In this document: positions 562 to 53,542 of the stretch, piece after piece
Layout: the number at the start of each line of letters is the position of its first letter
How positions within the stretch are numbered: the first letter of the stretch is position 1
Virus record (IMG/VR): IMGVR_UViG_3300046820_003928
Coordinates: 62,001-126,000 of that record
Length of the DNA stretch: 64,000 bases
Strand: one strand, 5' to 3'
DNA from: a virus
Notes under the pieces: generated by a model
Told to the model about the DNA's origin: nothing
Database searches by the model: none
The model's input: only the letters and a program-made list of their open reading frames with translations
Position numbers and translations under genes: made by a program

Positions 562-1737
562 TTATCCCATGAAGATTGCTTTGCCATTAGGGACTGGTAT
601 CTTGGCAAGCTGCTTTGTTAGATTTTCTGCCCGAGTAGCTGCTGTCTCAATTAGCTTGTCATAGGTAAGTGTATCAAGCATCTCTCTAAGCTTTGTATTT
701 AGGTTTGTCTTGTCTTCTCTTCCACGAGTAATCAGATCTGAGCCGTTCAGGGTTACAGTTCCTCCCGGGATTGGAAGTGTTCCAAATTTATTTCTAATGA
801 GACCAAGCTGTTCCATGCAGAGAGCAAGCGTATATTGCCTAATCCATTGCTTGCCCATGCTATTTACACGTGTGTAGTCAACATTTCCGAAAGGAATATT
901 TGAGAGATTGGACACGCCGTTTGTGGATTGATCTTCATAGTCTGGATTGAGCGGGTTTGCGTAAAAGCGAACTCTCACCCAGAGCTTATTTGGGACCTCG
1001 TTCAAGGAAGGGGTCGGATAGATTCGAAGATTTGTTCCGATTACCTTGTAGGAATAGTTCGATCTCCTGACTCTGTTTGAGATGTCAAGCATTCCCGCCC
1101 TTAGTACGTCTTCAAAGACAGGCAAGACGTAAAATATTGTCTCTGGGGTGAAGGATTCAAATGAAAAAGCGTTGTTCAGATAGTTGATAGCCGAAGTTGT
1201 ATCGAAGAATCGATAGGCTGCCTGCGGGCTGAAGTGAAAGACCTCCATTATCCTCATCTTTGTCTTGGGAGATTCATTGTGACTCCCGCTAAAGAGAGCT
1301 ATCCCGTCTCCGCCAAGAAGGTCATTGTAGAGGTTATAGTCCTGCTGACCAGGCTTAAGGGTTATGGACCCTGAGTAGTGATTGTATGATCCTCCGAGAC
1401 CTGCCTCTGTTGCATAGGGCTCAGCAAATCTTGCAAGATATTCAAGGCTCTCTCTTGGCATCTTGTTTGACGCCTCATCTCCAGATCCCGTGTTAAAACC
1501 GAGATATGTAAGAAGTTGAGATTTTGCCTGGTATTGATTTAGTATGTTACCATACTCCAGGGTGGCCTCTTCGAAGTTTCCCCAGACCATCTTTTTCGTG
1601 AGCTCAACAGAAAGAACGTCGTCTCCAAGCTTTCTCTTGACAAAGACAACCATTTTATCCGCATCAGTCTGGAAGACAGAGTCTAAATCGAATATCCCGA
1701 AAGGGGTAGGATTCAGGGTTGTGCTAAAAATTGACAT
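562..1737 (-). CDS. Virion structural protein, probable head-tail connector
   Basis: A 391-residue protein beginning MSIFSTTLNPTPFG. An in-frame GTG at 1749 would add four residues. I prefer the ATG at 1737 because GGTGAG lies just before it and the GTG has no such site. The protein is soluble, without membrane segments. A conserved-looking central stretch, about residues 210-270, reads as beta-rich (KVIGTNLRIYPTPSL, then LWVRVRFYANPLNPDYEDQ). A basic C-terminal helix contains RAENLTKQLAKIPVP. It lies directly before the last partial gene and after the head genes. I cannot assign a family; a connector or neck role is inferred from position only. Confidence 0.7.
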   Translation of the reverse strand: MSIFSTTLNPTPFGIFDLDSVFQTDADKMVVFVKRKLGDDVLSVELTKKMVWGNFEEATLEYGNILNQYQAKSQLLTYLGFNTGSGDEASNKMPRESLEYLARFAEPYATEAGLGGSYNHYSGSITLKPGQQDYNLYNDLLGGDGIALFSGSHNESPKTKMRIMEVFHFSPQAAYRFFDTTSAINYLNNAFSFESFTPETIFYVLPVFEDVLRAGMLDISNRVRRSNYSYKVIGTNLRIYPTPSLNEVPNKLWVRVRFYANPLNPDYEDQSTNGVSNLSNIPFGNVDYTRVNSMGKQWIRQYTLALCMEQLGLIRNKFGTLPIPGGTVTLNGSDLITRGREDKTNLNTKLREMLDTLTYDKLIETAATRAENLTKQLAKIPVPNGKAIFMG

Positions 1738-1780
1738 TTGCTCACCCACATTCTAGAAGTAAATAGGCTGCAAACGCAAG

Positions 1781-2807: not shown

Positions 2808-4550
2808 CTATCCCTTAATGCACATCTGAACGAAAGATCGCAAAGTGATCTCTGAGATCGTTTCTGGCTTGTCCAGAATGTTCCAGATTTCTTTCTTTGA
2901 CCTGTCGTCCAAGTCGCTTGGTAGCAGTGAAACAAACTGTTTTTCACTCCTGGATGCGAGTAGATCCCTCATATGAGTTCCGGATATTCTTTCTCCGCTA
3001 GAAAGCTGGACATTTTTTACGAAGACGGGTTCAATTCTCCCAGTGCCGTACTGGACTGGATAGTATTTCTGCAGAGACTCTGGAGAAAATCTGTCCTTAT
3101 CGTCTTCTCCTGCATAGAGTCTAAAAAAGACCTCAGGATCGTTAGCGTATGATCTTATTGCGCCTCTTGTGTCTCCCACAGGTTCTGCGCTGTAGCTAAT
3201 GTCTACATTTTTAGGAAGAATTGGTTCAAGATATCTCTTCCATATTTTTATCATGTCTGAACCAGAGATCTGGACTCCTCCGCTCTCTCTTGATTTTACT
3301 GAAACAATGAGAAATACCTTGTCGTTCTCTCTTGCAGCTTGCTCAATAACTGCCCAGTGTCCCTTGTGAACTGGTTTCACTGCCATCGGGACGACTCCGA
3401 TACTGACAGATCCTCTTCCCTTTCCTAGCCCGACTGCCTGTCGCTTTCCGAGAATATTACGAACAGCAGCAAGAGCGTCTTCTTGAATGTTTATGAGATT
3501 TTTTCTATCATTTTCTACGCCGACTGTAGCAAAGTCTTCCCTTGACATCGAAAAAACAATCTTAGAAAGGAAGGAGATTGCATCACCCATCGGTTCATCG
3601 TCAAGGTCGTCTTCATCAATTTTATTTCTAATGAACTTTGAAAGTTTTTCGTAATAAACATTCTCTTCTTCTGCAGATTTCTCACCAAACTCTTCTTGCT
3701 TCTTGGCACGTCTCGCTTCCTGGTCGTGCTGATCAGCCCGGGACGTCTTGAATAGCTTTCCAGTAAATCTTGTAGTCTGGCCGGTTTCTGGATCAGCAAT
3801 CGGAGAAACCACAACACCCTCAGCATCTCCACCAAGAGAAGAAGTAAAATCAGACAGAACATTAACAAAGGTGTCCAGAACTCCTTTCCAGTTCCCCCTT
3901 GAAATAAAACTGTCTATCTCTTCACTTAGATTCTCAAATCTTGTGCGAATACTGCTATCTTTGCACCCGTCGATAATTGAATCTGTAGAATCAAGTCTTC
4001 CTTCAAATATGACGGGATAAGCTTCGAGGTCAAGTGCACGTCTAAATTCTTCTTTTCTTTGTGTATCGTTTTCAAACTCTGCAAGAGATGTGACCCTGCC
4101 TCCTCTAAGGGAGTATGTTGTAGGTCCAAACCCAGTCAAAAATAGACCGCCTGTCTTTTCATAGCTCCTTGAAATTGTCGGCTTTCTCTGGATGAACTCA
4201 ACAAAAAATTCATAGTCCCTAGGAATTTTTGATGTTTGCGGGTGGACACGTGCAAGATGATCATGGACAAAAGAATACTGGCTTCTTCCTGCTGACTGTC
4301 TCTCTATTTCCTTTTCTCTGCCTAGCCCCTTTAGGCCGGCAAATTCCTCAGGAAAAACAACGTTTTCCTTGTATGAGACTATCCAGTTGTTTAGATAGCT
4401 CTTAGGATCAAAAGGCTGATCATTTCTAATAAGAGTAAGCTTTGTACCATCAAGCTTCTCTTCAACAACCATGTATTGATTGCAAAATTCTTTGGCTGCA
4501 GAATTTGATGTGATAGTCTTGACAATCTTTGGAATTGAAATATCAAGCAT
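2808..4550 (-). CDS. Fused ligase-family domain and HxGH nucleotidylyltransferase
   Basis: A 580-residue two-domain enzyme. Residues 25-275 carry the covalent-nucleotidyltransferase motifs of ATP-dependent RNA/DNA ligases: motif I EKLDGTK with the AMP-accepting lysine K32, motif III-like YEFFVEF (113-119), motif IV EGVVV (244-248) and motif V GKLFK (264-268). Residues 290-375 form a charged helical linker. Residues 383-530 form an HxGH nucleotidylyltransferase domain like NMN adenylyltransferases and cytidylyltransferases: VKPVHKGH (391-398) and the C-terminal ISGTHMR (522-528). All visible catalytic motifs are intact. It overlaps the upstream pol-beta-type nucleotidyltransferase gene by 8 bases, so the two are translationally coupled. 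KLDGTK favours RNA end joining or repair over replication, but substrate and nucleotide are unknown. Confidence 0.8.
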   Translation of the reverse strand: MLDISIPKIVKTITSNSAAKEFCNQYMVVEEKLDGTKLTLIRNDQPFDPKSYLNNWIVSYKENVVFPEEFAGLKGLGREKEIERQSAGRSQYSFVHDHLARVHPQTSKIPRDYEFFVEFIQRKPTISRSYEKTGGLFLTGFGPTTYSLRGGRVTSLAEFENDTQRKEEFRRALDLEAYPVIFEGRLDSTDSIIDGCKDSSIRTRFENLSEEIDSFISRGNWKGVLDTFVNVLSDFTSSLGGDAEGVVVSPIADPETGQTTRFTGKLFKTSRADQHDQEARRAKKQEEFGEKSAEEENVYYEKLSKFIRNKIDEDDLDDEPMGDAISFLSKIVFSMSREDFATVGVENDRKNLINIQEDALAAVRNILGKRQAVGLGKGRGSVSIGVVPMAVKPVHKGHWAVIEQAARENDKVFLIVSVKSRESGGVQISGSDMIKIWKRYLEPILPKNVDISYSAEPVGDTRGAIRSYANDPEVFFRLYAGEDDKDRFSPESLQKYYPVQYGTGRIEPVFVKNVQLSSGERISGTHMRDLLASRSEKQFVSLLPSDLDDRSKKEIWNILDKPETISEITLRSFVQMCIKG

Positions 4551-5841
4551 TGAGAATTCCTCTGATTAGCCTGCGTAGCCCTTCTTCAAGTTCAACTGGC
4601 GCAAGCTCTTCATCGTCACTAGCGAGCGAGCCTCTATCCGCCATTTTCAGCTTGAATCTTTTATAATATTTCTCAAGCATTGCCTCAATCTCTTCAGGAG
4701 GTAGCACTTCATTGAGAACATCATCAAATCCAAAAGATCTAATTGCAGCAACAGCAGCTGCCTTTGGCTTGATGTCCTTGGCCTCACTATACGTGCTGAT
4801 CTCTTGTCCGTGATCACCTATAAGCTTATACAAAAAAGATTTAAGAACTTTCCCACAAAACTTCCTGCCCTCGGGATCTGGTAGAAGATTCTCTCGCATA
4901 ATATCGAGTAATCCTAAAAAGGATCTCATCTTCTCAAGATCCTCAGGCTCAGCAGAAAATCCAAAGGCTGCCTCGAAGATTTTTTCAGCATCAGTCACGT
5001 ATTTTTTCTCGCTAGGCTGCGTCACCTTGTAGACAGGCTGCCCCTCGTGTTCATAATCTTGCTTTGTAAGACGCGTTGTCCCTAGACCCTTGTCAACTGC
5101 AAGAGACTGCATATGGAGATCTGGTCCGGGCTCTTTCACAAGTCTTAGCTTTTCTTTTGTCGAAGCTGGGGTAGCAATATGTCCAGAGACACGAGATCTG
5201 ATTGATACGAGAGACTGCAACAGGTATTTGTGAAAAACTCCCTTGACTGACTGCTGAACATCTCGCCAGTTGGATGAGTGACTCAATTTGACCCATGATT
5301 TTAATGCTTTAGAAGTCTTCTCATCCTCTCCCTGCACTGGAATAGGTTGTGGCATAAAGTCAAACTGAATATATGGATTTCCCTTTCCATCCACGTACTG
5401 AAAGATTGTATTTGTGCCCCTATCATTGGCAACATTTTCGTTTGGCTGGATCTTCGTTCCAATAATCTTAAATTTGGATCCGAGCATCGATCCCTTGTTT
5501 TGATCGAGGAACTTTATTAACGAAGATCCGCGCTCTCCTGCTTGCGGGATGTAGATGTCAAGATCGCTAAAGGTCTCTTTATAAAATGAGAAATCCTCGT
5601 CGCTGATGCTAGGGTCAACGATGTGCTCAGTTGAACCGCCAAAGATCAAAAGATCACTGAAGTAGCTCTCAAGTTCGGGCCAAAGCAACTTGCCAAACAT
5701 TGATGAAAATCCATCATTGAGAGCAGACAGCATTTCTTTGATATCTGCAATAAATCGATTTCTAGCGTTCTCTGATTTGAATTTAAGAGAATTTCCAGAG
5801 ATCAGTTTGCCATCAAGATCATAACGATAATTTCCACCCAT
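4543..5841 (-). CDS. Pol-beta superfamily nucleotidyltransferase-like protein
   Basis: A 432-residue protein from ATG 5841; an upstream in-frame TTG at 5847 is less likely. Residues 65-100 show the nucleotidyltransferase signature: LLIFGGSTEHI (GGS 68-70), then SDLDIYIP with the two metal-binding aspartates D93 and D95. A third acidic position follows in YIQFDFMP (D161). This Gly-Ser, DxD, D layout is shared by CCA-adding enzymes, poly(A) polymerases and MNT-type enzymes. The C-terminal 250 residues are helical and charged, with no recognised domain. It overlaps the downstream ligase/nucleotidylyltransferase fusion by 8 bases and follows a homing endonuclease gene. The pair suggests an end-processing plus sealing function on nucleic acid, which is inference. 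It could instead modify a protein or small molecule. Confidence 0.7.
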   Translation of the reverse strand: MGGNYRYDLDGKLISGNSLKFKSENARNRFIADIKEMLSALNDGFSSMFGKLLWPELESYFSDLLIFGGSTEHIVDPSISDEDFSFYKETFSDLDIYIPQAGERGSSLIKFLDQNKGSMLGSKFKIIGTKIQPNENVANDRGTNTIFQYVDGKGNPYIQFDFMPQPIPVQGEDEKTSKALKSWVKLSHSSNWRDVQQSVKGVFHKYLLQSLVSIRSRVSGHIATPASTKEKLRLVKEPGPDLHMQSLAVDKGLGTTRLTKQDYEHEGQPVYKVTQPSEKKYVTDAEKIFEAAFGFSAEPEDLEKMRSFLGLLDIMRENLLPDPEGRKFCGKVLKSFLYKLIGDHGQEISTYSEAKDIKPKAAAVAAIRSFGFDDVLNEVLPPEEIEAMLEKYYKRFKLKMADRGSLASDDEELAPVELEEGLRRLIRGILNA

Positions 5842-5865
5842 ATGCAATCACTCGCTTTTAGCTAA

Positions 5866-7278
5866 CTATCGTGAAATAGTAAAAATCTTTGATCCTGCAC
5901 CCCAGATCCTAAAAACTCGGGATTCTGATGCTATCTGTCGCTCAGATTTTCCATCTCTTGCTCTGAACTTAAATCGATCAAACCTGCTTCTGAGATCTGA
6001 GTACCAGTAGTCAGGACCCGTTGATCCCACTTCGACAAATCCCGACTTTAGATACCCTTCTCCCTTTCCGACTCGACGATCGACGTAAGTCATCAATCCT
6101 TGTTTTTCAGATTCTACTGCATATTTGTAAGCCACACTAGAAATTCTCGACAATCCTCCTGGAATATTCCATCCGGGAGCAATTGCAAATCTTGAGATCT
6201 CAAGCCATTCATTCCACTTTTTCTGTCGTGGCGCCCGCAAAGACATACAAGCAACAATCTCGCCCTTGTGCTCTAGCCCCCACGCGATCTTTGCTACTGC
6301 ATACCCAGACAGGTGGCTTCTTTCAAAAAACTGTCGCTGCGTATGAGCGTCAACTTCTACAATCTTGCACTGTCTTGCTCCAGCGTGATATTTAAAAAGA
6401 CCTAGACGACTAAGGATCATACCTTTGACAATCTCCTGTCGATCTTGCCATTCATCTTGAAAAATCTGTAAGAGTCGAACTCCTGCAGCATCTGCAAGAT
6501 TTGCCTTTATAGAATGTGCTTTAGGGTCACACCCAGTTTTTGCCTCAGAGTGAAAATAGAGACCGTGACACTCGATGCCAAGATTCTTCTCTGGAACAAA
6601 GATGTCAATCTCTTTCGGGGCTATTACAGTTCTGTCTCCCCTTCTTGTCTGTATGCCAAGATCTTTGATCCAGGACTCGACCTCAATCTGCCATTGAGAC
6701 GCTGTGACTGGGTGACAGGTCTCACAGAGGGATCCTCGTTCAAATGCTTGCAAAGTCTTCTGCTGGATATCTCCACAGGTTTTGCATCTGAGTTCAAGAT
6801 ATTGACGCTGTCTGCTAAAATATTCATGCAAAGGAGTTAGAAGCTTAAAATCAGAATCTCTTTCCTCGATTCGTGATGCTATCGTCTCTTTCCCCAGCCG
6901 CTTTGAGATGCTGATGCGTGCCCGAGTGACATCATCGTGCCTGCGACCAAAAAAGGGATTTCCGGATCCAGATACCTTGTTAGAAATTTCTCTAATGCGA
7001 GAGTCAGTCTGCGCCGTTTTTCCCTTGTTCCATGATTCAGCCCTTCCTCCCTTTGCGCCGCCTTCTCTAGCTGCAATTCTGGAACACCCTTGACAGTATT
7101 TCTTAAACTGGAAAGAAGAGTATCTCGTTAAAGATCCACATGAAGCGCAAAGGGGTCGCACATCATGATGATGGAACTTTATTGTATATTCCTCTCCTGA
7201 CATGCCATGAGACTTCTTGATATGGTTTGACAGAGATTTACCATCAGGAAAATCAGCATCGCATCCAAGACACTTCAT
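5866..7278 (-). CDS. Homing endonuclease, EDxHD (Vsr-like, I-Bth0305I type) with zinc fingers
   Basis: A 470-residue free-standing endonuclease. The N-terminus has a C2H2-like finger (CLGCDADF...HIKKSHG, residues 3-25) and two further CxxC pairs (CASCG, CQGC). Residues 100-130 contain a NUMOD3-type DNA-binding motif (GSGNPFFGRRHDD). Another CxxC pair (CKTCGD) is followed by CETCHP. The catalytic core, about residues 195-290, has EIDIFVP followed by GIECHGLYFHSE, the layout of EDxHD nucleases related to Vsr. The C-terminal 180 residues are basic and probably recognise DNA. It sits with a second homing nuclease just downstream of the major capsid gene, a favoured invasion spot in T4-like phages. 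It is probably expressed from its own promoter and is not needed for virion assembly. Confidence 0.8.
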   Translation of the reverse strand: MKCLGCDADFPDGKSLSNHIKKSHGMSGEEYTIKFHHHDVRPLCASCGSLTRYSSFQFKKYCQGCSRIAAREGGAKGGRAESWNKGKTAQTDSRIREISNKVSGSGNPFFGRRHDDVTRARISISKRLGKETIASRIEERDSDFKLLTPLHEYFSRQRQYLELRCKTCGDIQQKTLQAFERGSLCETCHPVTASQWQIEVESWIKDLGIQTRRGDRTVIAPKEIDIFVPEKNLGIECHGLYFHSEAKTGCDPKAHSIKANLADAAGVRLLQIFQDEWQDRQEIVKGMILSRLGLFKYHAGARQCKIVEVDAHTQRQFFERSHLSGYAVAKIAWGLEHKGEIVACMSLRAPRQKKWNEWLEISRFAIAPGWNIPGGLSRISSVAYKYAVESEKQGLMTYVDRRVGKGEGYLKSGFVEVGSTGPDYWYSDLRSRFDRFKFRARDGKSERQIASESRVFRIWGAGSKIFTISR

Positions 7279-7364: not shown

Positions 7365-8153
7365 TCAAGAGAATCTAACCACCTCAAGATGCGCTTCGTT
7401 CTGGATGCACCATGTCATTGTTGCACGCCACTTTTCACGGTCGGTGTCAGTCTCATGCCCTTTCACCTCGTACAGAGTCTTTCTGTCAAGCGTCAGAAAG
7501 TCTGGGATGTAGACCCGCTCGACACCGTTCGGGTCCACGTACGGGATGCGGATGCCGTGCTGCTTGGTGACAGGAATATTCCGTTCGATGCACTCATCGA
7601 GGAATCGAGTCTCCCAGGAGGAGTGCATGTATTCCTCCCGACCGGTGAATGGGTTGAGCTTCCACTCGGTTCTGTAGGGCGCCTGGGGACCGATCTTGCC
7701 CTGCTCGAGGAGATCACAAGCTCGGGAGGACTGCAGCTTTCTCTTCCCAGCTGATTCGGGCTTCTGCCAGTTCTCGGCGTTTGTTTTTGCTGAGCGCTTT
7801 CGGACTTCAGGGGTGATGTGCGCTCGCATAAGCGAAGCTTGATTTGTTGCCTTGTCTTTATTTTCTCCGTAAAAACGGACTAAGTTTTTACGATTCTTCT
7901 CGCCAATTTTCGCTTTCGATTCATTTGTCAGACGACCCTCAATTCTTGCCGAGTGGCCGTGAATATACCGCAGAAATCTCATTCCCTGAGATCTTGAGAA
8001 GGGTACATCGAGTCCGCAGCCACATTCACACTTTGGGTTGACTCCTCCGTGTATGTAGTTTAGAAGATAACTTTCGTAAGAAGTGTTGTGTGCCCGGAGC
8101 ACGTGTGGTGCAAGACGTTCGAAATCTTTCTGGCAGATTTTGCATGATTCCAT
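7365..8153 (-). CDS. Homing endonuclease, PD-(D/E)XK type with zinc finger
   Basis: A 262-residue protein. It starts with a C2H2-like finger (CKICQKDFERLAPHVLRAH, residues 4-22) and a CECGCG cluster. A basic DNA-binding middle (residues 80-150, many Lys/Arg/Asn) follows. The C-terminal nuclease fold has SSWETRFLDECIERN (178-192), then IPDFLTL and LYEVKG, which supply the P-D and E-x-K residues of a PD-(D/E)XK site. It lies between the capsid-gene terminator and the EDxHD homing gene. Base composition changes sharply within the gene. The catalytic end is GC-rich (39 of 60 bases at 7501-7560) and the N-terminal part is not (22 of 60 at 7861-7920), which suggests a recombinant origin. Its target is probably in or near the capsid gene of related phages; that is inference. 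Confidence 0.75.
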   Translation of the reverse strand: MESCKICQKDFERLAPHVLRAHNTSYESYLLNYIHGGVNPKCECGCGLDVPFSRSQGMRFLRYIHGHSARIEGRLTNESKAKIGEKNRKNLVRFYGENKDKATNQASLMRAHITPEVRKRSAKTNAENWQKPESAGKRKLQSSRACDLLEQGKIGPQAPYRTEWKLNPFTGREEYMHSSWETRFLDECIERNIPVTKQHGIRIPYVDPNGVERVYIPDFLTLDRKTLYEVKGHETDTDREKWRATMTWCIQNEAHLEVVRFS

Positions 8154-8202
8154 GATTAGATTATATTCATATCAACATGAAAGTTATATAAAAAAGAAAC
8201 AA

Positions 8203-8232
8203 AGATGGCGCCCTTTTTAGGGGGCGCCATCT
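8203..8232 (-). terminator. Rho-independent terminator after the major capsid gene
   Basis: A perfect 11-bp stem (AGATGGCGCCC and its complement) closes an 8-base loop and is followed on the minus strand by TTTGTTTCTTTTTT. It starts 40 bases after the capsid stop codon. It would end the head operon transcript and isolate the homing genes and the downstream cluster. Confidence 0.9.
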
Positions 8233-8271
8233 ATATAGTTGATCTAATTGATTAGATTAGATTACGTTCAA

Positions 8272-10179
8272 CTATATAATATTCATGTCAAGACACGTGA
8301 CCGTCCCGTAGAAGTCGGCGCGGACCATCTTCTTGCCGTAACGGGTCATAACGCCCTTGCGAGGAGTGAAATCCTCGGGAGCAAAGATCGTCGGGGTGAC
8401 GATGAGTGGGACGTAAGGAGCGTAGACATAGCCTGTCTCGAGGTAGCTGCCGCCCTTGTAGCCGACAAGAACCTTGTTACGGGGGAAGTAAGGGTCCTTG
8501 TAGACGGTGAAGCGGTTGCTCAGGGTGCCGATGGGGGTGGCGCCGATGGACATCGAGCCGCCGACCTGGCCCTGGCCATCGATCGAGTAGTTGGGCTTGT
8601 AGAGAACCGAAGCCTCGAGGACGGTGGCGACATCGGGTGAAACCACGATGAAGTTGGCCGAGCCGCGAAGGGTCTTGCGGTGGATCTCGTTAGCGACGTC
8701 GATGATGGTCTCGATGAGGGTCTCGTACCACTCGCGGACGGTGCCTGTGAAGGCAGGGCCGGGCTGCGTGGAAGAGGAGCGAGAGATCTCAGCGCCTGTG
8801 GTCTTGTTGACGAAGCGACCTGGTGCACGGCTCCAGTAGTAGTTGGCGCCACGAGCCTCGGTGAGGAGGTCGTTGAGGATCTCACGGTCGATCTCAAGAG
8901 CGATCTGCTCGGAGAGGATCTGGGTGAGCTCGACCTCTGCATCCATCGAGTGGTATGCGTTGAGGTCCTGGGCCAGCTCTGGTGACCAGCGAGCGCGCAG
9001 CTTGCGGGTTGTGGCTGTGACTGGGATGCTCTCGATCTTGATGTCGATCTCGGGGATGACAACCTGGGGCTGTGTAGCAAAGTCAGACTCGAACGAGGGG
9101 ATCGTCAGAGTTGATGCATCAGAGCCGTCAACGTTGAGCGAGTCAGCGATGGCGTATGATGCTGTGAGGTAGACAGCTGAGGTTGCTGCAGCGCCTGGGA
9201 TGTATGTACCAGAGACAACTGTAAGAACTGCTGCGCCGGCGGAGCCAGAGGGAAGCAGGGGGTTGGGGGTGAAGATGCCACCGCTGTAGGTGCCGAGCTG
9301 GTTGAGACGACGAACGTTGAGGATGTTCTGGCCGCCCTGGAAGGTCTCACCAGGAACTGCAAGGCCTGAAGTGCCTCCTGCAGAGTGAAGGGCGATCTCC
9401 TTGACCTGATTGAGGTCAACGTTTGATGGGAAGGAGGCAACGCTGAGGACCAGGAACTGGAACTGACCGGTGGAAGCTAGTGTACCATCAGCTGCATCTG
9501 TCTCGATAAGCGAGGTGATCTGTGGGTCGAACTGGAGGAAGCGACCGTCTGTACCAGTTGCAAAGGCCTTTGCAGCGTTGGTGAGTGTGGTGCCGCCCTG
9601 CCAGGAACCCGAGGCGAGGAGACCAACGCCGGTGGAGCTGGTGTGCACCTTTGTGAAACCGGTGCCGACGAGATCGTACTGGCCGCCGGTTGCGAGTGAA
9701 CCAGAGCGGATTCCCTTTCCGGTTGGGTTGTTGTAGATCGACTGACCACCCTTGTAGGTTGCGCCTGAGGTTGAGACGCCAGTCTGGAGGTTGGCATCGC
9801 CACCGACGTCTGAGCCGTAGGTGTAATCCAGGTAAAACAGGAGACCGGATGGGAGGCTCATTGGCTGGATGGAGACGAGCTCGTTAGCAACGAGACCGCC
9901 GAAGACGCGACGGACAATGGGGAAGGCGATGTTGGTGAAGCCACGGATATCACCGGAGCCAACTGCATTGGCGCCGCCGGTGCCGAGGGAGTTGACCTCG
10001 CGGAGGACCTGGGCTGCCTGGTTCTCCATGAGGCGGGCCATGTTGTCACGCTTGACGCCATCGAGACCGCGGAGGAGACCGGTGCGTGTCCACTTCTCGA
10101 TGAGGCGCTTGCCCTCCTCAGTCACATTACGATCGGAAATGCCCTCAGTGAGCATGTTGAGTGAAAAAGACTTAGACAT
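8272..10179 (-). CDS. 23: Major capsid protein, T4 gp23-like
   Basis: A 635-residue shell protein. Conserved blocks match T4 gp23: GFTNIAFPIVRRVFGG then QPMSLPSGLLFYLDYTYG (residues 80-120), SPELAQDLNAYHSMDAEVEL with LEIDREI (about 400-440), and near the C-terminus VGYKGGSYLETGYVYAPYV and VMTRYGKKMVRADF. It is about 110 residues longer than T4 gp23. The extra sequence is a Gly/Ser/Thr-rich stretch at about 150-375, probably an insertion domain exposed on the shell. LRE at 59-61 lies where T4 gp23 is cut (after LTE65), so the gp21-like protease should remove the first 61 residues. AAGGAG precedes the ATG by 8 bases. Codons are strongly GC-ended (37 of 60 bases at 8641-8700), as in very highly expressed genes. 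A strong terminator follows. Confidence 0.97.
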   Translation of the reverse strand: MSKSFSLNMLTEGISDRNVTEEGKRLIEKWTRTGLLRGLDGVKRDNMARLMENQAAQVLREVNSLGTGGANAVGSGDIRGFTNIAFPIVRRVFGGLVANELVSIQPMSLPSGLLFYLDYTYGSDVGGDANLQTGVSTSGATYKGGQSIYNNPTGKGIRSGSLATGGQYDLVGTGFTKVHTSSTGVGLLASGSWQGGTTLTNAAKAFATGTDGRFLQFDPQITSLIETDAADGTLASTGQFQFLVLSVASFPSNVDLNQVKEIALHSAGGTSGLAVPGETFQGGQNILNVRRLNQLGTYSGGIFTPNPLLPSGSAGAAVLTVVSGTYIPGAAATSAVYLTASYAIADSLNVDGSDASTLTIPSFESDFATQPQVVIPEIDIKIESIPVTATTRKLRARWSPELAQDLNAYHSMDAEVELTQILSEQIALEIDREILNDLLTEARGANYYWSRAPGRFVNKTTGAEISRSSSTQPGPAFTGTVREWYETLIETIIDVANEIHRKTLRGSANFIVVSPDVATVLEASVLYKPNYSIDGQGQVGGSMSIGATPIGTLSNRFTVYKDPYFPRNKVLVGYKGGSYLETGYVYAPYVPLIVTPTIFAPEDFTPRKGVMTRYGKKMVRADFYGTVTCLDMNII

Positions 10180-10187
10180 ATTAAAAA

Positions 10188-10193
10188 CTCCTT
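10188..10193 (-). promoter_or_regulatory. Strong ribosome binding site of the major capsid gene
   Basis: AAGGAG lies 8 bases before the capsid ATG at 10179, within the 26-base gap after the scaffold gene. A near-identical leader (CTTAAGGAGTTTTTAAT here, CTAAGGAGTTTTAAA there) precedes the 94-residue head protein at 12987. The two GC-ended genes therefore share translation signals. Confidence 0.7.
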
Positions 10194-10205
10194 AAGCTTG
10201 TTTGA

Positions 10206-11543
10206 TTACTTGAGACCTGCCAGGGTGGCCCAGCGATCGACTTCACCTGCACCGTTCATGCGAGCAGATGATGAGGTAACTGGACGTGATGCCAGACCGG
10301 CTGTGTGCTTGACTGATTCGTTGAGAGACTCATTCTTCGATGTGATCGAGGTGGTGAGGCTCTCAAAGAGCAACTTGGCTTCGCGAAGATTCGATGCGCC
10401 GTCAAGAGCCTCGATGATTGCGCGACGTTGATTAGGTGCAACGTCCTTGTTCTGGAGGATCTTGTTTACATAAAGAAGCTTGGCGTTGAACAAGTTTAGA
10501 TCGGAAAGTTGCTCACGAAGCGTTTCAATTGCGCCTCTGTAATCATTGAGCTGATTCTTGAGGGCGTGATTTTCACGCGCTCCTTCCTTGATCTTCTTCT
10601 TGGCGAGATCTAGCTCGTTCATGTTGACGTCCATTGCGTCACCCTCGAGCGTGCCACCGCCAAAGGCTGCTGCTGCAACCTTGTGCGATTTTTCAGATGA
10701 ACCCTTTTTACGAGACTTAGCCTCGCGGAGCCTTGCAAGCTCACGACGAAGCATGTTCTCATCAATCTCATAGACCATCTCAGCGAGAGCCTCCTCGTCG
10801 CCTTCTTCAGCGCCGGCCTCAGCTGCTGGCTCGACGGGAGCAGCCTCAGCTTCCTCCTCGCCAACCTCAACCTCTTCCTCCTCGCCTTCGGTCTCTTCGA
10901 ATTCAATTCCCATAAGACCGAGCTTGTCAAATGCCTCTTTCTCTTCGGCAGTTCCAACAAGCTTGAGCACGGCTTCTTCAAGGTCATCCTCGTCGCCGTG
11001 CATCATTTCATCGAGCTCATAGAGCTCCTCATCCATCACTTTGTTCATTTTAGCTCCTTTAGCCTTTGATTCAGTCTCAGAGACAACGGATTTCTTGAGT
11101 TCCTCAAGGTCTACCTCGTAGGATCCGCTTGCCTCAACAGTTTCGGTCTCCTCGGACTCACCCTCTTTGATGAGTGCCAGGAGCCTTCCCTGCTCCTCTT
11201 CTGAAAGCGAGTCAAAGGCTTCAGAAAGAGCTGCAAGATCATCATTCTTTCCGGCGGAGCTTCTTTGTGATCCATTCATTAGATCTACAAGAGAGCGAAG
11301 GGCAGTCTCATCAAGTGCCACTTCTTCATCGGCGCCTTCCGCCTTTCCGTCTTCTTCGGAGATCGCTGTTGCAAGAAAGTCTGCGTCTTCGTTGACTGGA
11401 GTCTCTCCTACAAGCTGACTTTCAATAAACTCTCTAATCTTAGGAGTAACCGCCTCGATGATGGCGTTCTTTGCATTGAGCTCTGCTACTTCTCGAAGCT
11501 GCTTAGCGTCAGCAATCGCCTCTTCGAACAGTGATCTCGACAT
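10206..11543 (-). CDS. 22: Prohead core scaffold protein, gp22-like
   Basis: A 445-residue, very acidic, helical protein placed between the protease group and the capsid gene, where T4 has gene 22. The N-terminus (MSRSLFEEAIADAKQLREVAEL) is a helix with an LRE site at 16-18. Residues 85-240 are Glu-rich with long acidic runs (EGEEEEVEVGEEEAEA). Residues 300-380 form a coiled coil (KKKIKEGARENHALKNQLN, then IETLREQLSDLN). Scaffold proteins of T4-type phages are helical, acidic and cut to small peptides by the prohead protease, which fits the many L-x-E sites. AGAGGAAAG precedes the ATG. Assigned on position and composition; no strong sequence signature was used. Confidence 0.75.
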   Translation of the reverse strand: MSRSLFEEAIADAKQLREVAELNAKNAIIEAVTPKIREFIESQLVGETPVNEDADFLATAISEEDGKAEGADEEVALDETALRSLVDLMNGSQRSSAGKNDDLAALSEAFDSLSEEEQGRLLALIKEGESEETETVEASGSYEVDLEELKKSVVSETESKAKGAKMNKVMDEELYELDEMMHGDEDDLEEAVLKLVGTAEEKEAFDKLGLMGIEFEETEGEEEEVEVGEEEAEAAPVEPAAEAGAEEGDEEALAEMVYEIDENMLRRELARLREAKSRKKGSSEKSHKVAAAAFGGGTLEGDAMDVNMNELDLAKKKIKEGARENHALKNQLNDYRGAIETLREQLSDLNLFNAKLLYVNKILQNKDVAPNQRRAIIEALDGASNLREAKLLFESLTTSITSKNESLNESVKHTAGLASRPVTSSSARMNGAGEVDRWATLAGLK

Positions 11544-11593
11544 ATTCTTTCCTCTAATGCTGAAATTATGTATATCTATGCTTTGGTTTCTTC

Positions 11594-12139
11594 TTATTCT
11601 TGACTAAGTCTTGCAATTTTTAGCTTTTTTCTTGTTCTTTCTCGAAGATCGGGATTAACAGCGTCTACAAATCGAAAGGGAGCCTGATCTGTCACAGGGT
11701 TTGCTTTGACATCTCCCATTGACCACCCGCGTGGATCGACATCGACGACGCCTGGTGCAACAGTAAAAGAGGGATTTGAAGATGTCCCACCAAGAGCAGG
11801 TCCGTCAAATTTTCTCATTGGAAAAGGAACGATTCCAGAAAGTGTAGTTCTAGGAGTCGCTGAGTTCTCTGCGAGATCTAATCGATTCTTTGCCATTGTG
11901 AATCGATCAGTTCTTGAGAACGGTTCAGGTCTTTTTGCAAGGTTGCCATAGCTAACTTTTTTATTTATGAGGGCTCTCAGATTTAGTCCAGAATCACTAT
12001 CATCATACGCTTCTTCTTCATCACTGTTTTCTGTATTGTAGGGAAATTTATCACCAGATTTCTCTGGATTTTGAAATCCCTTCCTTCCAGTAAACCCATA
12101 GCCAGCGCCAGTCCTTTGATCGTGGACAAATTTTGGCAT
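11594..12139 (-). CDS. Uncharacterised head-region protein, 181 residues
   Basis: I do not recognise this protein. It starts MPKFVHDQRTGAGYGF, is hydrophilic and looks largely unfolded: an acidic patch (NSDEEEAYDDSDSG, about residues 38-51), a Pro/Gly-rich middle (PFPMRKFDGPALGG) and a basic C-terminus (LRERTRKKLKIARLSQE). It overlaps the upstream 176-residue gene by one base and precedes the scaffold gene. Four small genes lie between protease and scaffold, the region where T4 carries prohead core genes. A minor core or capsid-bound protein is the likeliest role, from position only. Confidence 0.65.
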   Translation of the reverse strand: MPKFVHDQRTGAGYGFTGRKGFQNPEKSGDKFPYNTENSDEEEAYDDSDSGLNLRALINKKVSYGNLAKRPEPFSRTDRFTMAKNRLDLAENSATPRTTLSGIVPFPMRKFDGPALGGTSSNPSFTVAPGVVDVDPRGWSMGDVKANPVTDQAPFRFVDAVNPDLRERTRKKLKIARLSQE

Positions 12140-12669
12140 CAGGAACGTCCGTCAGATCCTAGATAAGACCTTCCTGAGATGTATGATCCAATTGTCTGCC
12201 CTGCAACACCAGGAGTCGTCTCTGATGGTGATACTGCGCCTAGACCAAATCCATATTCATTTCCCTTTTCTGGAAGCTGTCCAACATACTCAGGAATATC
12301 GTACGGAGACGTGCTACCCGGACCAGGAGATGCTGGGTTGGGAACATATGGAGATGCTGGGAGGCCCTCGCCTCCGACAGGAACTGTTTCAAGGTCTGGC
12401 ACGCCAGAGAAATTTAGATCGAATGACCCAAAGGCATATCCGCCATCATTTACGACGCCAGATGTGACACCGATGTTTGGTATGCTATCCCCGGGACCGC
12501 CATTCCCATTCAGCGCAGCAATTGCTGCATTCTTTACAGCCTCTTCGCTGTATGTCGTTCCCACAGGAGTTGCAAACATCGCCGAAAGATTGACATCGTT
12601 CCGATGACCAAGACCACCCTCTCCGGGAACGCCTTGCGGCACAACAGTCGAATACTTTACAGATGACAT
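12139..12669 (-). CDS. Uncharacterised Gly/Pro-rich head-region protein
   Basis: A 176-residue protein of unknown family. The ATG at 12669 is preferred over the in-frame TTG at 12675 because AGGAG lies 6 bases before the ATG. It is rich in Gly, Pro and Ser with few charged residues (PASPYVPNPASPGPGSTSPY, about residues 107-126), contains repeated Gly-Val/Gly-Gly turns, and ends in SYISGRSYLGSDGRS. No helix-forming segment or membrane span is visible. It may be an extended linker or a surface protein of the head. Its stop codon overlaps the start of the next gene by one base, so both are made from the same transcript. Confidence 0.65.
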   Translation of the reverse strand: MSSVKYSTVVPQGVPGEGGLGHRNDVNLSAMFATPVGTTYSEEAVKNAAIAALNGNGGPGDSIPNIGVTSGVVNDGGYAFGSFDLNFSGVPDLETVPVGGEGLPASPYVPNPASPGPGSTSPYDIPEYVGQLPEKGNEYGFGLGAVSPSETTPGVAGQTIGSYISGRSYLGSDGRS

Positions 12670-12702
12670 TTGCAACTCCTGTGTAACAGTTTTTAAGGTT
12701 GA

Positions 12703-12987
12703 TTAATCAAGATCGTTGACAATCTGACGGCGGAGAGCAAGACGACGCTCCTGGATCTTGCGAAGCTGGTCGCGAAGCTCGACTTCCTGCTCCTTGAGCA
12801 TCTTGAGGGTCTGAAGCTTCTTGCCGGGAGTCTGCTTCACTGTGTGTGCAGGCTTGCCTGGCCACTCCTCGTCCATCTCAAGAGCAAGATCCTTCTTTGC
12901 CTGCTTTGTCTTCTTGTCATTCATCATCTTCGCCTTCTCCTCGAGAACGAGCTTGCGAAGCATATCGGGTGTAAGCTTGGTTGCCAT
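12703..12987 (-). CDS. Small charged helical head protein, 94 residues
   Basis: A 94-residue protein that is helical almost throughout, with a Lys-rich first half (TPDMLRKLVLEEKAKMMND) and a heptad-patterned second half (LQTLKMLKEQEVELRDQLR) suggesting a coiled coil. Its codons are GC-ended like the capsid gene and unlike its neighbours, and its leader has the same AAGGAG site, both pointing to very high expression. An abundant internal core protein like T4 gp67/gp68, or a capsid-binding protein, fits. The LVLEE site near residue 16 could be cut by the prohead protease. Function is inferred from abundance signs and position. Confidence 0.7.
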   Translation of the reverse strand: MATKLTPDMLRKLVLEEKAKMMNDKKTKQAKKDLALEMDEEWPGKPAHTVKQTPGKKLQTLKMLKEQEVELRDQLRKIQERRLALRRQIVNDLD

Positions 12988-13013
12988 TTTAAAACTCCTT
13001 AGGGTTTCAAAGA

Positions 13014-13025
13014 TTAAATATCACA
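13014..13025 (-). promoter_or_regulatory. Shared intergenic 12-mer TGTGATATTTAA, copy 1
   Basis: The minus strand reads TGTGATATTTAA 27 bases upstream of the ATG of the 94-residue head protein. The identical 12-mer occurs at 28542-28553, again in an intergenic gap and 21 bases before a start codon. It could be a promoter element. I know of no named consensus that matches. Confidence 0.35.
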
Positions 13026-13029
13026 GAAC

Positions 13030-13539
13030 CTACGATCTTGTGGGAACCTTTTCAGCAAATGCCAGCGCAGCCCACATTCCTGCACTTTCTCCAAAAATGT
13101 CTGTCGGATCGCTTTTTAGCATTGCTCTAGATGCGGCATCTCCTGCAGATTCAATCATCTGTTCGTGACTAACCCGACCAGAAGAAGATTCAGACATGCT
13201 CATGTAGGCACCATTTCTTGCAGTGTCTGCAAAGATGTCAGCCATTATAGGATCAGATGTGATAGAGCTGGCAAGAGCTGCTGTTCTTTGATTTACAGAT
13301 GTAGTGCCTTCCCGTATTTCTTCCCTCTTTGGAAGAAAGCTAATCTTATCTGCAATTGATTGTCTTGGATTCTGAGGTTGTTTGGTGCCTTGCGAGGTGC
13401 TCATTCCGCGAACCGGAGCAGCCGTGCGCATCTGTCGTGACTCATTTATAGTCTGCTGAGTCTCTGAGAGACCCTCTGCGAGGATCTCAACGAGGCATTC
13501 TTTGACCAGGTTTTTCAGGTCATTTCTTGTCATCTTCAT
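13030..13539 (-). CDS. Head-region protein with a probable cleavable N-terminal helix
   Basis: A 169-residue protein. The first 22 residues form an amphipathic helix (RNDLKNLVKECLVEILAEG) that ends in two overlapping-style L-x-E sites, LVE18 and LAE22. The middle is Ser/Thr/Gln-rich and disordered. The C-terminal 70 residues are mixed helical (SDPIMADIFADTARNGAY and FGESAGMWAALAFAEK). GGAAG precedes the ATG, and the gene follows the protease stop by 3 bases. An N-terminal helix ending in a protease site is how T4-type and related phages target proteins into the prohead core, so I infer a core or internal capsid protein. No family name can be assigned. Confidence 0.65.
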   Translation of the reverse strand: MKMTRNDLKNLVKECLVEILAEGLSETQQTINESRQMRTAAPVRGMSTSQGTKQPQNPRQSIADKISFLPKREEIREGTTSVNQRTAALASSITSDPIMADIFADTARNGAYMSMSESSSGRVSHEQMIESAGDAASRAMLKSDPTDIFGESAGMWAALAFAEKVPTRS

Positions 13540-13542
13540 TTA

Positions 13543-14148
13543 TCACTTCCAGGATTTGATCTCATTGAAGATTCTATTGATGCGATCAGATCTATTAAAG
13601 GTTGCACGAAGATCGACAGGATTTATTGATCTTGACTCACGAAGCATAAAGGCACCGGGTGTGCTCGGCTCAGAAACAATATCAAAACAGATCAGCTGGA
13701 AATCCTCTTGTACAACTGTGTGTCCGTCCTGCTGACGAGTAGATCCTACGCCTCTTGAGGAAATCCCAAGTGTAACTCCTGATTCGATGAGACTCTGCAA
13801 GATCTTTCCGCTAGGAGTATCTAGCAGCTCAACAGATCCATAAACAGTATCTCCCTCCATCCGGGCTTCTCTAACGATATGAGAGGCGTTCTTGAGTTCA
13901 ACAACAGAGGTGTCTGGGTGATCACACTCACCAAGCGCGCGATTTTCTCGGATGAACTTCTGGTAGTTGATTATCTCTCTTTCCAGTATGGCTCGTGGGT
14001 AGATTCTACCATTTTGATTGAGTGTATCAGATCTCTGGATTATGCCCTTAAGCATGATCTTGCCCCCGTTAAGGGCTCGAGACTCCTTGATGAGGTCAGG
14101 AGTAAGTGAGAGGGGTGTCCACTCAGTAAGCAGAGAAAGTGCGCTCAT
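13543..14148 (-). CDS. 21: Prohead maturation protease, T4 gp21-like
   Basis: A 201-residue serine protease of the herpesvirus-assemblin/gp21 class. The catalytic histidine lies in GECDHPDTS (about residues 73-81), and the catalytic serine in LGISSRGVGS (about 130-139), in the usual order and spacing. The N-terminal NGRIYPRAILEREI motif is typical of prohead proteases of T4-like phages. An LTE site at residues 7-9 suggests self-cleavage. It overlaps the 285-residue gene by 4 bases and lies upstream of scaffold and capsid genes. It should cut scaffold, core proteins and capsid protein after L-x-E, then destroy itself. Length agrees with T4 gp21 (about 210). Confidence 0.92.
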   Translation of the reverse strand: MSALSLLTEWTPLSLTPDLIKESRALNGGKIMLKGIIQRSDTLNQNGRIYPRAILEREIINYQKFIRENRALGECDHPDTSVVELKNASHIVREARMEGDTVYGSVELLDTPSGKILQSLIESGVTLGISSRGVGSTRQQDGHTVVQEDFQLICFDIVSEPSTPGAFMLRESRSINPVDLRATFNRSDRINRIFNEIKSWK

Positions 14149-15002
14149 TTTGCCTCCTTAGATTCCTCGATGAGCTGTGATAGAGTCATTAGTCGACCAA
14201 GGGTCTCGTCATTTAGGTTCTTAGTATCAAGATCATTAACGCGCTTTCTTATGTTAGAGATGTTCTCCTGGATAATCTGATTTTTCTCATTCTTCTCAAT
14301 TTCATCTAGGCAGGCAAGAGAATCAACTTTAATCTTTTGAGCACGCTCAATCATCCGCTCTGTTGGTCCCACATCAGACTTCATGAGGACATAATCTCTT
14401 ATGATCGCCTGCTGATCCTGCGTAAGACTTCCTGCATACTTTTTATTGAATTTTTCATTGAGGATTTTGACAACAAGCGTGTCAACATTTTCGTTTACCT
14501 GAGGCATTGGCTCGGCGTGGGGCAATTCACTTCTTAGCATCTCAACGAGCTTTGTCTCAATTAGAACTGTCTTGGCAAGATCAGATCTATCGCCAAGCGC
14601 CCATTCATTGAGCGCCACCTGGATCGTAGCAAGGTCTCTGTAGTTTGAGATTCGACGGTGAAAAAACATGCTATCATTGAGCGTGTGATTGATATCCTTG
14701 ATTAGAAGAGACTTCTCTCTATCAAGCTTTGTAAAGTCAATACGACGCGCTGCTGCCTTCGACTCTGTCAGAATAACTGCAGATATGGCAGAATCAGAAA
14801 CTCTTGTTTTTGCAAGAGCATTGAACAGTCTGAACTCCTTAAATAGCTCAGTGTCCCTAGCAAACCGCTTTGAAACAATGTCAAGCGCGATTTGTGCCTT
14901 GCTTCTGTTTCCTTCGATTAGGTATGAAGAAACTGCACGAAGCAAGAGCTCATATACAATTCCAACATTTCTTTTCTTGTTATGATTGATTCCCGTTTCC
15001 AT
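14145..15002 (-). CDS. Uncharacterised helical protein between portal and protease
   Basis: A 285-residue, nearly all-helical protein without recognised motifs. Features are an N-terminal basic stretch (METGINHNKKRNVGIVYELL), a middle rich in Arg/Lys (ESKAAARRIDFTKLDREKS) and a C-terminal coiled-coil-like segment (residues 215-285, ERAQKIKVDSLACLDEIEK). It shares its last and first bases with the protease and portal genes, so its level is tied to theirs. In T4 the portal-protease interval holds small core genes 67 and 68. This protein is longer, so the comparison is positional only. A prohead core or portal-associated role is plausible. Confidence 0.65.
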   Translation of the reverse strand: METGINHNKKRNVGIVYELLLRAVSSYLIEGNRSKAQIALDIVSKRFARDTELFKEFRLFNALAKTRVSDSAISAVILTESKAAARRIDFTKLDREKSLLIKDINHTLNDSMFFHRRISNYRDLATIQVALNEWALGDRSDLAKTVLIETKLVEMLRSELPHAEPMPQVNENVDTLVVKILNEKFNKKYAGSLTQDQQAIIRDYVLMKSDVGPTERMIERAQKIKVDSLACLDEIEKNEKNQIIQENISNIRKRVNDLDTKNLNDETLGRLMTLSQLIEESKEAK

Positions 15003-51148: not shown

Positions 51149-52301
51149 CTTTTAGTATCTGCGAGAATACGTCATTGTAGATTTTAAGAATGGAATTCTT
51201 TGAGAACTTCTCAAGACATTTACTCTTAAGATCTTTTGCCCATTCTGCAGGCATTTGACTTGATTCTCTAAATTTTTTAATCTTCTTTTTGAAATCTTCT
51301 TCTCTAGGTTTTGCCCACTTGGATCCCTTGATAAAGATTCTTTCATCTGCTCTTGAATCTGAGATCTCTACTAGGTCTGACTCTATCTTAATCCATTTTC
51401 CAAGATTCAAAAACTCAGTATGGGCAGACCAGTTTGTAGCGATAACTGGAAGACCAGATGCTGCTGCTTCAAGTAGGGGTAGACCGAAGCCTTCTCCTCT
51501 TGTTAGACTTACAAGTGCACGAATAGATTTGTCTCTGTAAAGACTTGCAATCTCTTCATTTGTCATGCATCCATGAACAAAATAAACTGGGACTTTGCTT
51601 TCTCCTCTTGTCTGGGAGATGACTCGATTTAAAACTTGCTCTGTAAGAGATCTATCTATGGTTGTTCCACGACCGCTATTTGTCTTTAGGACGATTCCAA
51701 CATCTTTGTCTGCTTTAAAAGTTTCGAAGATCCACTTCAGTGTATTTGCAATGTTCTTTCTATCGTGTTCTGGATCAGCTGCTGTAAGCTGACTTACAAT
51801 TAAAAAGTTGAAATTTGTTCTTGTAGTTATATCAGCTATTTTTGAATCACTTTCAATTTCTTCAATAAACCACTCAGGAACAACAAAGATAGGCTTTTCA
51901 ACTTTTCCAGTATTCAAAAGAACGTCTTTTGTGAACTGAGAGGGTACAATAATGGCATCCATCTTGTTGCACTTCTCAATCCAGGCAGGGTTGCACTTGT
52001 CTGTCTCAACAGCTGCAGTTACACCCACGTTTATTTTTGCGAGGGTGTCTGACCATTCATCAGGAAGCTGCACCTGGAAGGAAACATCAAAACCGCTCTG
52101 TCTATCTGTTGAGCGCTTCATGATTTCACCAGAAAGTCCGCCTTCTTCCTCTGGATTAATCATCCAAGATGTATTTCCCCACTGGACAACTTGAGAAAAT
52201 ACATTTGCGTCAGGTATTCTCTTTACTGCTTCAAATAGCTGTCTGCTATGATGTCCATACCCGGAGATGCTCAACAAGGGAGCCCGAACTACTATCTCCA
52301 T
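51141..52301 (-). CDS. Glycosyltransferase, GT4 family
   Basis: A 386-residue GT-B fold enzyme from ATG 52301, which overlaps the upstream stop codon (TGATG) and has AAGGAG 5 bases before it. The C-terminal donor-binding motif TRGEGFGLPLLEAAASGLPV (about residues 270-289) with IATNWSAHTEF is the E-x7-E pattern of retaining GT4 enzymes. Just before it lies VYFVHGCMTNEEIASLYRD, the nucleotide-sugar site region. Donor and acceptor are unknown; GDP-mannose-type donors fit the neighbouring dehydratase. It is coupled to the second GT4 gene and closes the glycan block. Confidence 0.87.
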   Translation of the reverse strand: MEIVVRAPLLSISGYGHHSRQLFEAVKRIPDANVFSQVVQWGNTSWMINPEEEGGLSGEIMKRSTDRQSGFDVSFQVQLPDEWSDTLAKINVGVTAAVETDKCNPAWIEKCNKMDAIIVPSQFTKDVLLNTGKVEKPIFVVPEWFIEEIESDSKIADITTRTNFNFLIVSQLTAADPEHDRKNIANTLKWIFETFKADKDVGIVLKTNSGRGTTIDRSLTEQVLNRVISQTRGESKVPVYFVHGCMTNEEIASLYRDKSIRALVSLTRGEGFGLPLLEAAASGLPVIATNWSAHTEFLNLGKWIKIESDLVEISDSRADERIFIKGSKWAKPREEDFKKKIKKFRESSQMPAEWAKDLKSKCLEKFSKNSILKIYNDVFSQILKDV

Positions 52302-53542
52302 CACATCTCCTTCACGGTGAATGTCTTTCTTTTTGTCTTCCAACTATCTACAAGATTACTTGCTGTGCTATGCCAATCGTCTATCGTCTTATTGAATGAA
52401 AACTCAGATCTTGCATAGTCAAAGACCTTCTTTCGAAGATTCTCTTTCTCAGAGTCTGATAGATTAAACATCTTCATGATTGCTCGAGAAGTGTTCTCTG
52501 TAGAAACATAGTCTTCATAGATGTATGGAACTCCTTGAGATCCAACCATCACCTTCATATCAATGTCCAGGGCGACGCCATTGTGAGACCCATCCCTATG
52601 ATCGACTGCCTGTCTCGTTAGACCGCCCGTCTTTGCTGCGATGATGGGTACACCTGCATTCATTGCCTCAAGCGTGGCAAGACCAAAGCCCTCTGCAAAA
52701 CTGATGTTGAGACATACATCAGAAATATTGTATAGGATGTTCATCTTGTCGAATCCTAACCGCTCTCTTGAAAAGACGACATTTGATGAAATCCCAAAAT
52801 GATCACACACGGCATAAAGATTTGGCCCCTCTTGATCGAGGGGATCAGTATGCATAATCAGGGTGGCTCTCTGGTGACCTTTCTCTCTCTTCAGATCATC
52901 AAGAAAAATCTTCCATGACTCAATGACGTCACTTGGTCTCTTTCTTCTTGCATTTCTATTAACCCAGATTGCAACAAAATCATCAGCTCTATTGTGTCCA
53001 AGGAGAGAAGACTTATGCATCTTCTTCTCTTGCATAGAGATTGGATAGAAAAGATCTGGAGGAAGAGAATGAGGAATAAAGTTTGTCTTATCTGGAAACT
53101 TATCTTTCAACATTGAATATGTTGCGTAAGAATGACAGTTGATAAGATCTGTCGCCTCATAGAGTGGAGCATTAAATGCCGGATAGGGTAGATTATCCCA
53201 GACATGCCACCACGCAATGGGACAAACCTGATGAATCTCATCCTCCATCTCAAACAGCCAAATAAAGAATCTTGGGTCTGTAAAGATTAACAGAAGATCG
53301 GGCTTCTCTGTGGCAAGTGTCACTCGAAGAAGATCTCTGTTTCCAAATCCATCGATGGGCTTGATGATAAAATCATCATTGACAACAACTGTTCGATAGT
53401 CTGTGTGCTTCATTGCAGCACCAAACTGCCTAAATGTCCATCCGCCCTTCTGGAGAAGTCCATTTACCAGGTGACGTGTTTGAGTTCCAACTCCGGAAGT
53501 TGAAAGAGCGTGATCAGATAGAATTAGTACTTTCTTTTTCAT
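52301..53542 (-). CDS. Glycosyltransferase, GT4 family
   Basis: A 413-residue GT-B enzyme. The N-terminal Rossmann start VLILSDHALSTSGVGTQTRH shows the Gly-rich acceptor-side loop. The C-terminal domain has FAEGFGLATLEAMNAGVPII then AAKTGGLTRQAVD (about residues 283-315), the E-x7-E pattern of retaining GT4 enzymes. A central basic segment (VNRNARRKRPSDVIESWKIF) marks the nucleotide-binding part. It ends in the TGATG overlap with the next GT4 gene, so they are made together, perhaps adding successive sugars. Substrates cannot be read from the sequence. Confidence 0.87.
   Translation of the reverse strand: MKKKVLILSDHALSTSGVGTQTRHLVNGLLQKGGWTFRQFGAAMKHTDYRTVVVNDDFIIKPIDGFGNRDLLRVTLATEKPDLLLIFTDPRFFIWLFEMEDEIHQVCPIAWWHVWDNLPYPAFNAPLYEATDLINCHSYATYSMLKDKFPDKTNFIPHSLPPDLFYPISMQEKKMHKSSLLGHNRADDFVAIWVNRNARRKRPSDVIESWKIFLDDLKREKGHQRATLIMHTDPLDQEGPNLYAVCDHFGISSNVVFSRERLGFDKMNILYNISDVCLNISFAEGFGLATLEAMNAGVPIIAAKTGGLTRQAVDHRDGSHNGVALDIDMKVMVGSQGVPYIYEDYVSTENTSRAIMKMFNLSDSEKENLRKKVFDYARSEFSFNKTIDDWHSTASNLVDSWKTKRKTFTVKEM

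Follow-up and report, generated by a model that had tools for sequence, protein, structure and literature searches.

A pol-beta-type nucleotidyltransferase coupled to a ligase/HxGH fusion protein in a T4-like phage and its relatives: a candidate module for nucleic-acid end healing and sealing

What reaction might be carried out by two adjoining phage genes that together encode three nucleotidyl-transfer centres? The question is raised by a locus in IMG/VR virus record IMGVR_UViG_3300046820_003928, in which a gene for a pol-beta-type nucleotidyltransferase (NT) is followed by another one for a single chain that joins a ligase domain to an HxGH nucleotidylyltransferase domain (LIG.HX). The window, i.e., the whole stretch of DNA that was analysed, spans 64,000 nucleotides (positions 62,001 to 126,000) of this record of 140,420 bases. 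Matches to gp23, portal, terminase and baseplate wedge proteins in Pfam and PHROGs profile searches identify the phage as T4-like, and no tRNA genes were detected in its 140,420-base record. The features of the locus are collected in Table 1; the Ad2 and gp23 genes lie outside the module and were used as synteny anchors.

Table 1. Features of the locus, in window coordinates.
Feature	Position	Strand	Evidence and remarks
NT	4543..5841	-	432 aa from ATG; phrog_19290 (PHROGs), E=1e-19; AlphaFold2 pLDDT 92.2
LIG.HX (fused ligase + HxGH nucleotidylyltransferase)	2808..4550	-	580 aa, ATG; AlphaFold2 pLDDT 92.7
Ligase domain of LIG.HX, ~aa 1-335	3546..4550	-	RNA_ligase at aa 26-252, E=4e-4; Foldseek
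HxGH domain of LIG.HX, ~aa 376-580	2808..3425	-	TIGR00125, E=7e-6; NMNAT/PPAT/NadD matches
Neck protein, head-tail adaptor Ad2, downstream of LIG.HX	562..1749	-	phrog_211, 5e-10
Major capsid protein gp23, upstream of NT	8272..10179	-	PF07068, 5e-79
NUMOD3 homing endonuclease	5866-7278	-	between gp23 and NT
TnsA/REase-fold endonuclease	7365-8153	-	between gp23 and NT

The reading frames of NT and LIG.HX overlap by 8 bases (4543–4550), as the initial annotation had described. The ATG of LIG.HX is preceded by a Shine-Dalgarno-like stretch, AGAGGAA, which lies inside the 3' end of NT, so the two genes are probably translationally coupled; an in-frame TTG is found at 5847, upstream of the NT ATG. 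Synteny comparison showed that only some relatives have the two endonuclease genes between gp23 and NT, and we thus take them as the mobile elements of the region. Relatives retain the order gp22 - gp23 - NT - LIG.HX - Ad2, in most cases lacking the homing genes, and Ad2 comes after LIG.HX in about 22 related loci. Therefore, the module has a stable place among the clustered head genes of this phage group, and the idea that it is accessory cargo, drawn from the neighbouring homing genes, finds no support. Comparison of the two nearest relatives gave a dN/dS of ~0.07 for both genes, which points to strong purifying selection and would fit a working enzyme pair.

Other features of the region can be mentioned on their own account. 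The gp23 protein has 635 aa and its best Pfam Gp23 stretch covers aa 358-625, which suggests a large insertion within the N-terminal half. Two glycosyltransferase-like genes (52301-53542 and 61619-63451, both on the minus strand; phrog_2170 and phrog_13126) lie towards the other end of the window. The HxGH domain appears to have been duplicated in a close relative of the window (L107:4778-5560), where an additional, free-standing copy is encoded upstream of NT.

The ligase domain of LIG.HX carries its motifs at the expected sites: EEKLDG (K32), E118, EGVVV (E244) and GKLFK (K268). In the alignment, K32, D34, G35, E118, E244, G245 and K268, which cover motifs I (KxDG), III, IV (EGxxx) and V (K), are found in 51 of 51 relatives, with the caveat that some search patterns contained EKxDG, DxD or HK stretches, so that the invariance of those columns, here and below, is partly due to selection; E118, E244, G245, K268 and, in NT, G69 and S70 formed part of no search pattern. 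The AlphaFold2 models of LIG.HX and NT, built from alignments of 51 and 54 relatives, respectively, are confident, and structure prediction with Foldseek matching recovered the ligase, HxGH and pol-beta folds that had been proposed from the motifs. Against the PDB, the N-terminal half of LIG.HX has the fold of a ligase adenylation domain, matching fungal Trl1 (1e-7) and T4 Rnl2 (5e-7), and neither DNA ligases nor capping enzymes appear among the top 50 structures for the model. In profile searches the protein matches phrog_27149 (E=3e-27), and the domain calls from sequence alone are weak: RNA_ligase (PF09414) was hit with 21 bits against a gathering cut-off of 27, the HxGH profile matches also sit below cut-off, and nothing relevant was found for NT. 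Given that score, the domain is described here as ligase-like and is not filed as a member of the RNA_ligase family.

From its modelled fold, the N-terminal domain is thus predicted to be an Rnl2/Trl1-like ligase. T4 RNA ligase 2 (Rnl2, gp24.1) is, together with Trl1, the nearest solved ligase fold, and the T4 rnlB gene is also located beside capsid genes. The motif of Rnl2 is KxHG, whereas LIG.HX has KxDG, and LIG.HX further differs in its C-terminal HxGH domain, its near-obligate NT partner and its RNA_ligase score below cut-off.

The partner protein shows the motifs G69-S70, D93-x-D95 and D161, with further invariant residues D194, K200, H204 and K205. The Gly-Ser, DxD and D residues read in the initial annotation are present in 54 of 54 NT relatives (the DxD columns with the above caveat), and the pol-beta metal triad is complete. 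Foldseek matched the NT model to Pol mu, Pol beta and AsfvPolX in the PDB with probabilities up to 0.97, but with E ~0.06 and TM ~0.35. In a viral structure library, strong matches were limited to two viral proteins, with 633 and 306 residues; the latter is the length of a Stenotrophomonas phage gene, with a weak sequence match to a split-type NT (L037, E=0.03). The model suggests a divergent pol-beta nucleotidyltransferase, of predicted activity and without a close solved relative, and it is at least as similar to DNA polymerase X structures as to RNA nucleotidyltransferases. Two more specific identities were rejected: RlaP (no PF10127 match, hhalign probability 0.6%), which is encoded as a separate gene at other sites in 5 carrier genomes, and a CCA-adding enzyme (no family match in profile searches). 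The PADLOC defence models matched neither NT nor LIG.HX.

With a pol-beta polymerase, a ligase and, in some loci, a phosphoesterase, the module could also be seen as a small polX/ligase or LigD-like set acting on the phage genome itself, for instance at the ends of packaged or injected DNA. Besides the polymerase X structures matched by NT, the location among head and packaging genes would agree with such a role: gp23 and the neck gene in the group of the window, terminase and portal (read from sequence) beside a group of ~1310-aa fusions, and portal near the gene of Campylobacter phage CP220. No Pfam DNA ligase is found elsewhere in the genome of the window either. However, the ligase domain matches RNA ligases before any DNA ligase, the HxGH domain would be left without a role, and 16 of 29 carrier genomes already encode a separate DNA ligase over cut-off, so we consider a DNA-end function unlikely. 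Separate Rnl1 (12 of 29) and Pfam RNA_ligase proteins (11 of 29) are also encoded over cut-off in carriers, and no other ligase of these three families was detected in the window's genome. As many carriers have other ligases, the module is an addition to ordinary ligases and not a substitute for them.

The C-terminal domain of LIG.HX has HKGH (395-398) and ISGTHMR (522-528) motifs. Among the 51 relatives, H398 is kept in all, H/T395 and T/S525 in 50, S523 in 49 and R528 in 39, so that the active sites of this 580-residue fusion, described as intact in the initial annotation, are in place and invariant or nearly so. The alignment profile of the domain matches NMNAT (6e-7) and PPAT (2e-6) in the PDB, and the C-terminal third of the model matches NadD, PPAT and archaeal NMNAT structures (E. 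faecium NadD, 1e-5, by Foldseek). The (H/T)xxH and ISxTxxR motifs on this fold place it in the HxGH nucleotidylyltransferase superfamily. Phage NadM, NadR and NMNAT proteins and the cyanophage 'cytitidyltransferases' (phrog_3462, phrog_395, phrog_3041), for which an open-access search found no papers, share the fold with its (H/T)xGH and ISxTxxR motifs, but those described are fused to Nudix or kinase domains or to other C-terminal extensions, whereas in the module the HxGH domain shares a chain or an operon with a ligase and NT, and NadV is usually missing.

The closeness to NMNAT and NadD, and the HxGH and ISGTxxR motifs themselves, bring up the restoration of NAD+ against NAD-depleting defence, in which the HxGH domain would be an NMN adenylyltransferase and the rest associated repair. 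Every NadM phage is reported to have NadV (PMC9503650), while NadV/NAMPT (Pfam NAPRTase) is present in 5 of the 29 carrier genomes and absent from 24, including that of the window. In X1, Ps15 and G009, three of the phages with NadV, another HxGH gene lies near NadV, which indicates that the HxGH domain of the module is a different paralogue. PPAT-like enzymes, moreover, match the domain almost as well. In our opinion, NAD+ restoration is very improbable, and the NAD-like cofactor system put forward in the initial annotation is weakened accordingly. NAD salvage through NadV was rejected as the main role on the same grounds, and so was a KptA-linked use of NAD, KptA being absent from all 29 genomes. 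We think that the HxGH domain is the part of the module that no known precedent explains, and it is the main reason for interest in it.

The association of NT with the ligase extends well beyond this locus. A tblastn search of 50,697 phage records with either protein retrieved the identical 21 phages, 6 of Vibrio and 15 of Campylobacter; the two genes are 1.3 kb apart in the former and ~65 kb apart in the latter, where both are retained. These whole-protein homologues (gp026 and gp100 of Campylobacter phage CP220, Vibrio phage Va1 and relatives, in phrog_27149 and phrog_19290) carry no annotation beyond hypothetical or 'nucleotidylyl transferase domain'. In IMG/VR, a ligase lies within 3 kb of 47 of 55 distinct NT genes (6 fused, 34 abutting), an NT within 3 kb of 62 of 71 ligase genes (18 fused, 35 abutting), and the ligase is fused to the HxGH domain in 70 of 71 loci. 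The unpaired cases are mostly contig edges and Campylobacter phages, and one of these genomes (L157) encodes NT elsewhere. The neighbourhood survey thus bears out a conserved pairing. A cellular origin was set aside: single pattern scans of GTDB genomes, limited by the patterns, found nothing for the ligase and two MAG contigs for NT (Anaerolineae, L184, and Flavobacterium, L185); L184 also has a small ligase and a phosphoesterase, and both contigs are probably misbinned phage or prophage. No carriage of the module was seen in the stretches of cyanophage P-SSM2 that were examined. As had been suspected, no description of this layout was found in the open-access literature, though subscription papers may contain one.

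The module appears in quite diverse architectures. Besides the window type, with NT followed by LIG.HX, there are single chains in the order ligase-HxGH-NT (L116, L135, L150) and chains of ~1310 aa with two nucleotidyltransferases, ligase-HxGH-NT2-NT (L119, L124, L127-L149). Motif reading of one of the latter (L119:4102-8034) places the second pol-beta nucleotidyltransferase at aa 570-927, with GSAMYYK...GDIDIQI and QVD. NT can also be fused to a smaller ligase (L088, L094, L097), with HxGH, by motif reading, in longer chains (L093, L081); the L081 chain (7974-14378) has a further nucleotidyltransferase-like stretch, GSNAAF...SDIDLHL, also by motif reading. Fully split NT, ligase and HxGH genes occur in L036-L038, and Xanthomonas phage X1 and 12 Stenotrophomonas phages have NT, an unknown gene, the small ligase and HxGH as separate genes. 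Alignment of the small with the large ligase family spans every motif (hhalign E=4e-5, probability 69%). In 13 loci the operon contains or adjoins a gene for a calcineurin-like metallophosphoesterase (PF12850, 1e-10, in L101), and in several of them the reading frames overlap.

Xanthomonas, Stenotrophomonas and SAR11 phages carry an unannotated gene close to the module (L039:9882-10886, L046:6755-7699, L042:3505-4563); it may contain a nuclease-like motif, D...(S/V)xK, and gave no Pfam match. DUF6267 (PF19782) genes (L070:9053-11014, L042:4556-5788, L096:3528-4286) look like a second KxDG/EGxV ligase-like family. In L070, motif reading and a profile seeded with DUF6267 indicate that the small ligase is joined to a DUF6267-type domain, and DUF6267 adjoins NT in L096, while pelagiphage HTVC008M has DUF6267 (Pfam E=3e-135), a kinase and an HxGH protein in one gene row. 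Homology between DUF6267 and the small ligase is only suggestive (hhalign E 0.006, probability 6%), and an open-access search found no papers on DUF6267.

Ligase-fold enzymes include capping guanylyltransferases, which carry the same KxDG motif, and this leads to an alternative in which no ends are joined. The HxGH domain would turn a small phosphate compound into an activated form, an XMP-linked dinucleotide, and NT and the ligase-fold domain would pass nucleotidyl groups to RNA, DNA or a protein of the virion. The almost universal HxGH-ligase fusion, the ordinary repair ligases already present in carriers and the position in a late gene cluster are all in line with it, but the best folds are end-joining RNA ligases and not capping enzymes, and no acceptor emerged from the analysis. 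Such a modification or capping function seems improbable to us.

We favour, tentatively and at a little below an even chance, that NT and LIG.HX form a complex, specific to phages, that heals and seals nucleic-acid ends, probably those of RNA. The computed support consists of the folds, the conservation of active sites, purifying selection and the physical and genomic coupling. The two proteins would be subunits of one complex, with RNA as the more likely substrate. Broken ends would be made ligatable, in some phages by the metallophosphoesterase of the operon, whose presence in 13 loci provides most of the contextual support for end healing. NT might then extend the 3' end by one or a few nucleotides, as RlaP is predicted to do alongside Rnl ligases and as TUTases do alongside editing ligases, after which the ligase domain would adenylylate K32, transfer AMP to the 5'-phosphate and seal. 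The HxGH domain may make or consume an AMP-linked dinucleotide in the same cycle. The predicted closeness of the ligase domain to the RNA ligases Rnl2 and Trl1 argues for sealing. RlaP provides a precedent for the pairing (PMC7824862), being a pol-beta nucleotidyltransferase whose distribution tracks RNA ligases and which is predicted to restore lost nucleotides before sealing; no ligase fusion or HxGH domain is described for it there.

Several observations stand against end healing and sealing. The separate ligases of many carriers would make generic repair redundant, and the model assigns the HxGH domain no role. There is no KptA in the 29 genomes and no tRNA gene in that of the window. Apart from a zeta-toxin-like kinase encoded close to DUF6267 in HTVC008M, no polynucleotide kinase was found next to the module. 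A late head-gene position is unexpected for early counter-defence, and NT is at least as near to DNA polymerase X as to RNA nucleotidyltransferases.

A bolder reading, which we think rather unlikely but worth stating, is that NT, the KxDG ligase-fold domain and HxGH make up one undescribed machine with a reaction unlike any known, such as installing or removing a NAD- or CoA-like dinucleotide adduct on nucleic-acid ends; in marine T4-like phages, DUF6267 would form a second branch of it, likewise ligase-like. That the module has been repeatedly fused, split and re-fused across phages of unrelated hosts is strong evidence of a joint reaction not yet described. The 'hypothetical' families phrog_27149 and phrog_19290, and perhaps DUF6267, thereby receive a testable function, which would enlarge the set of known phage tools for repairing ends or modifying nucleic acids.
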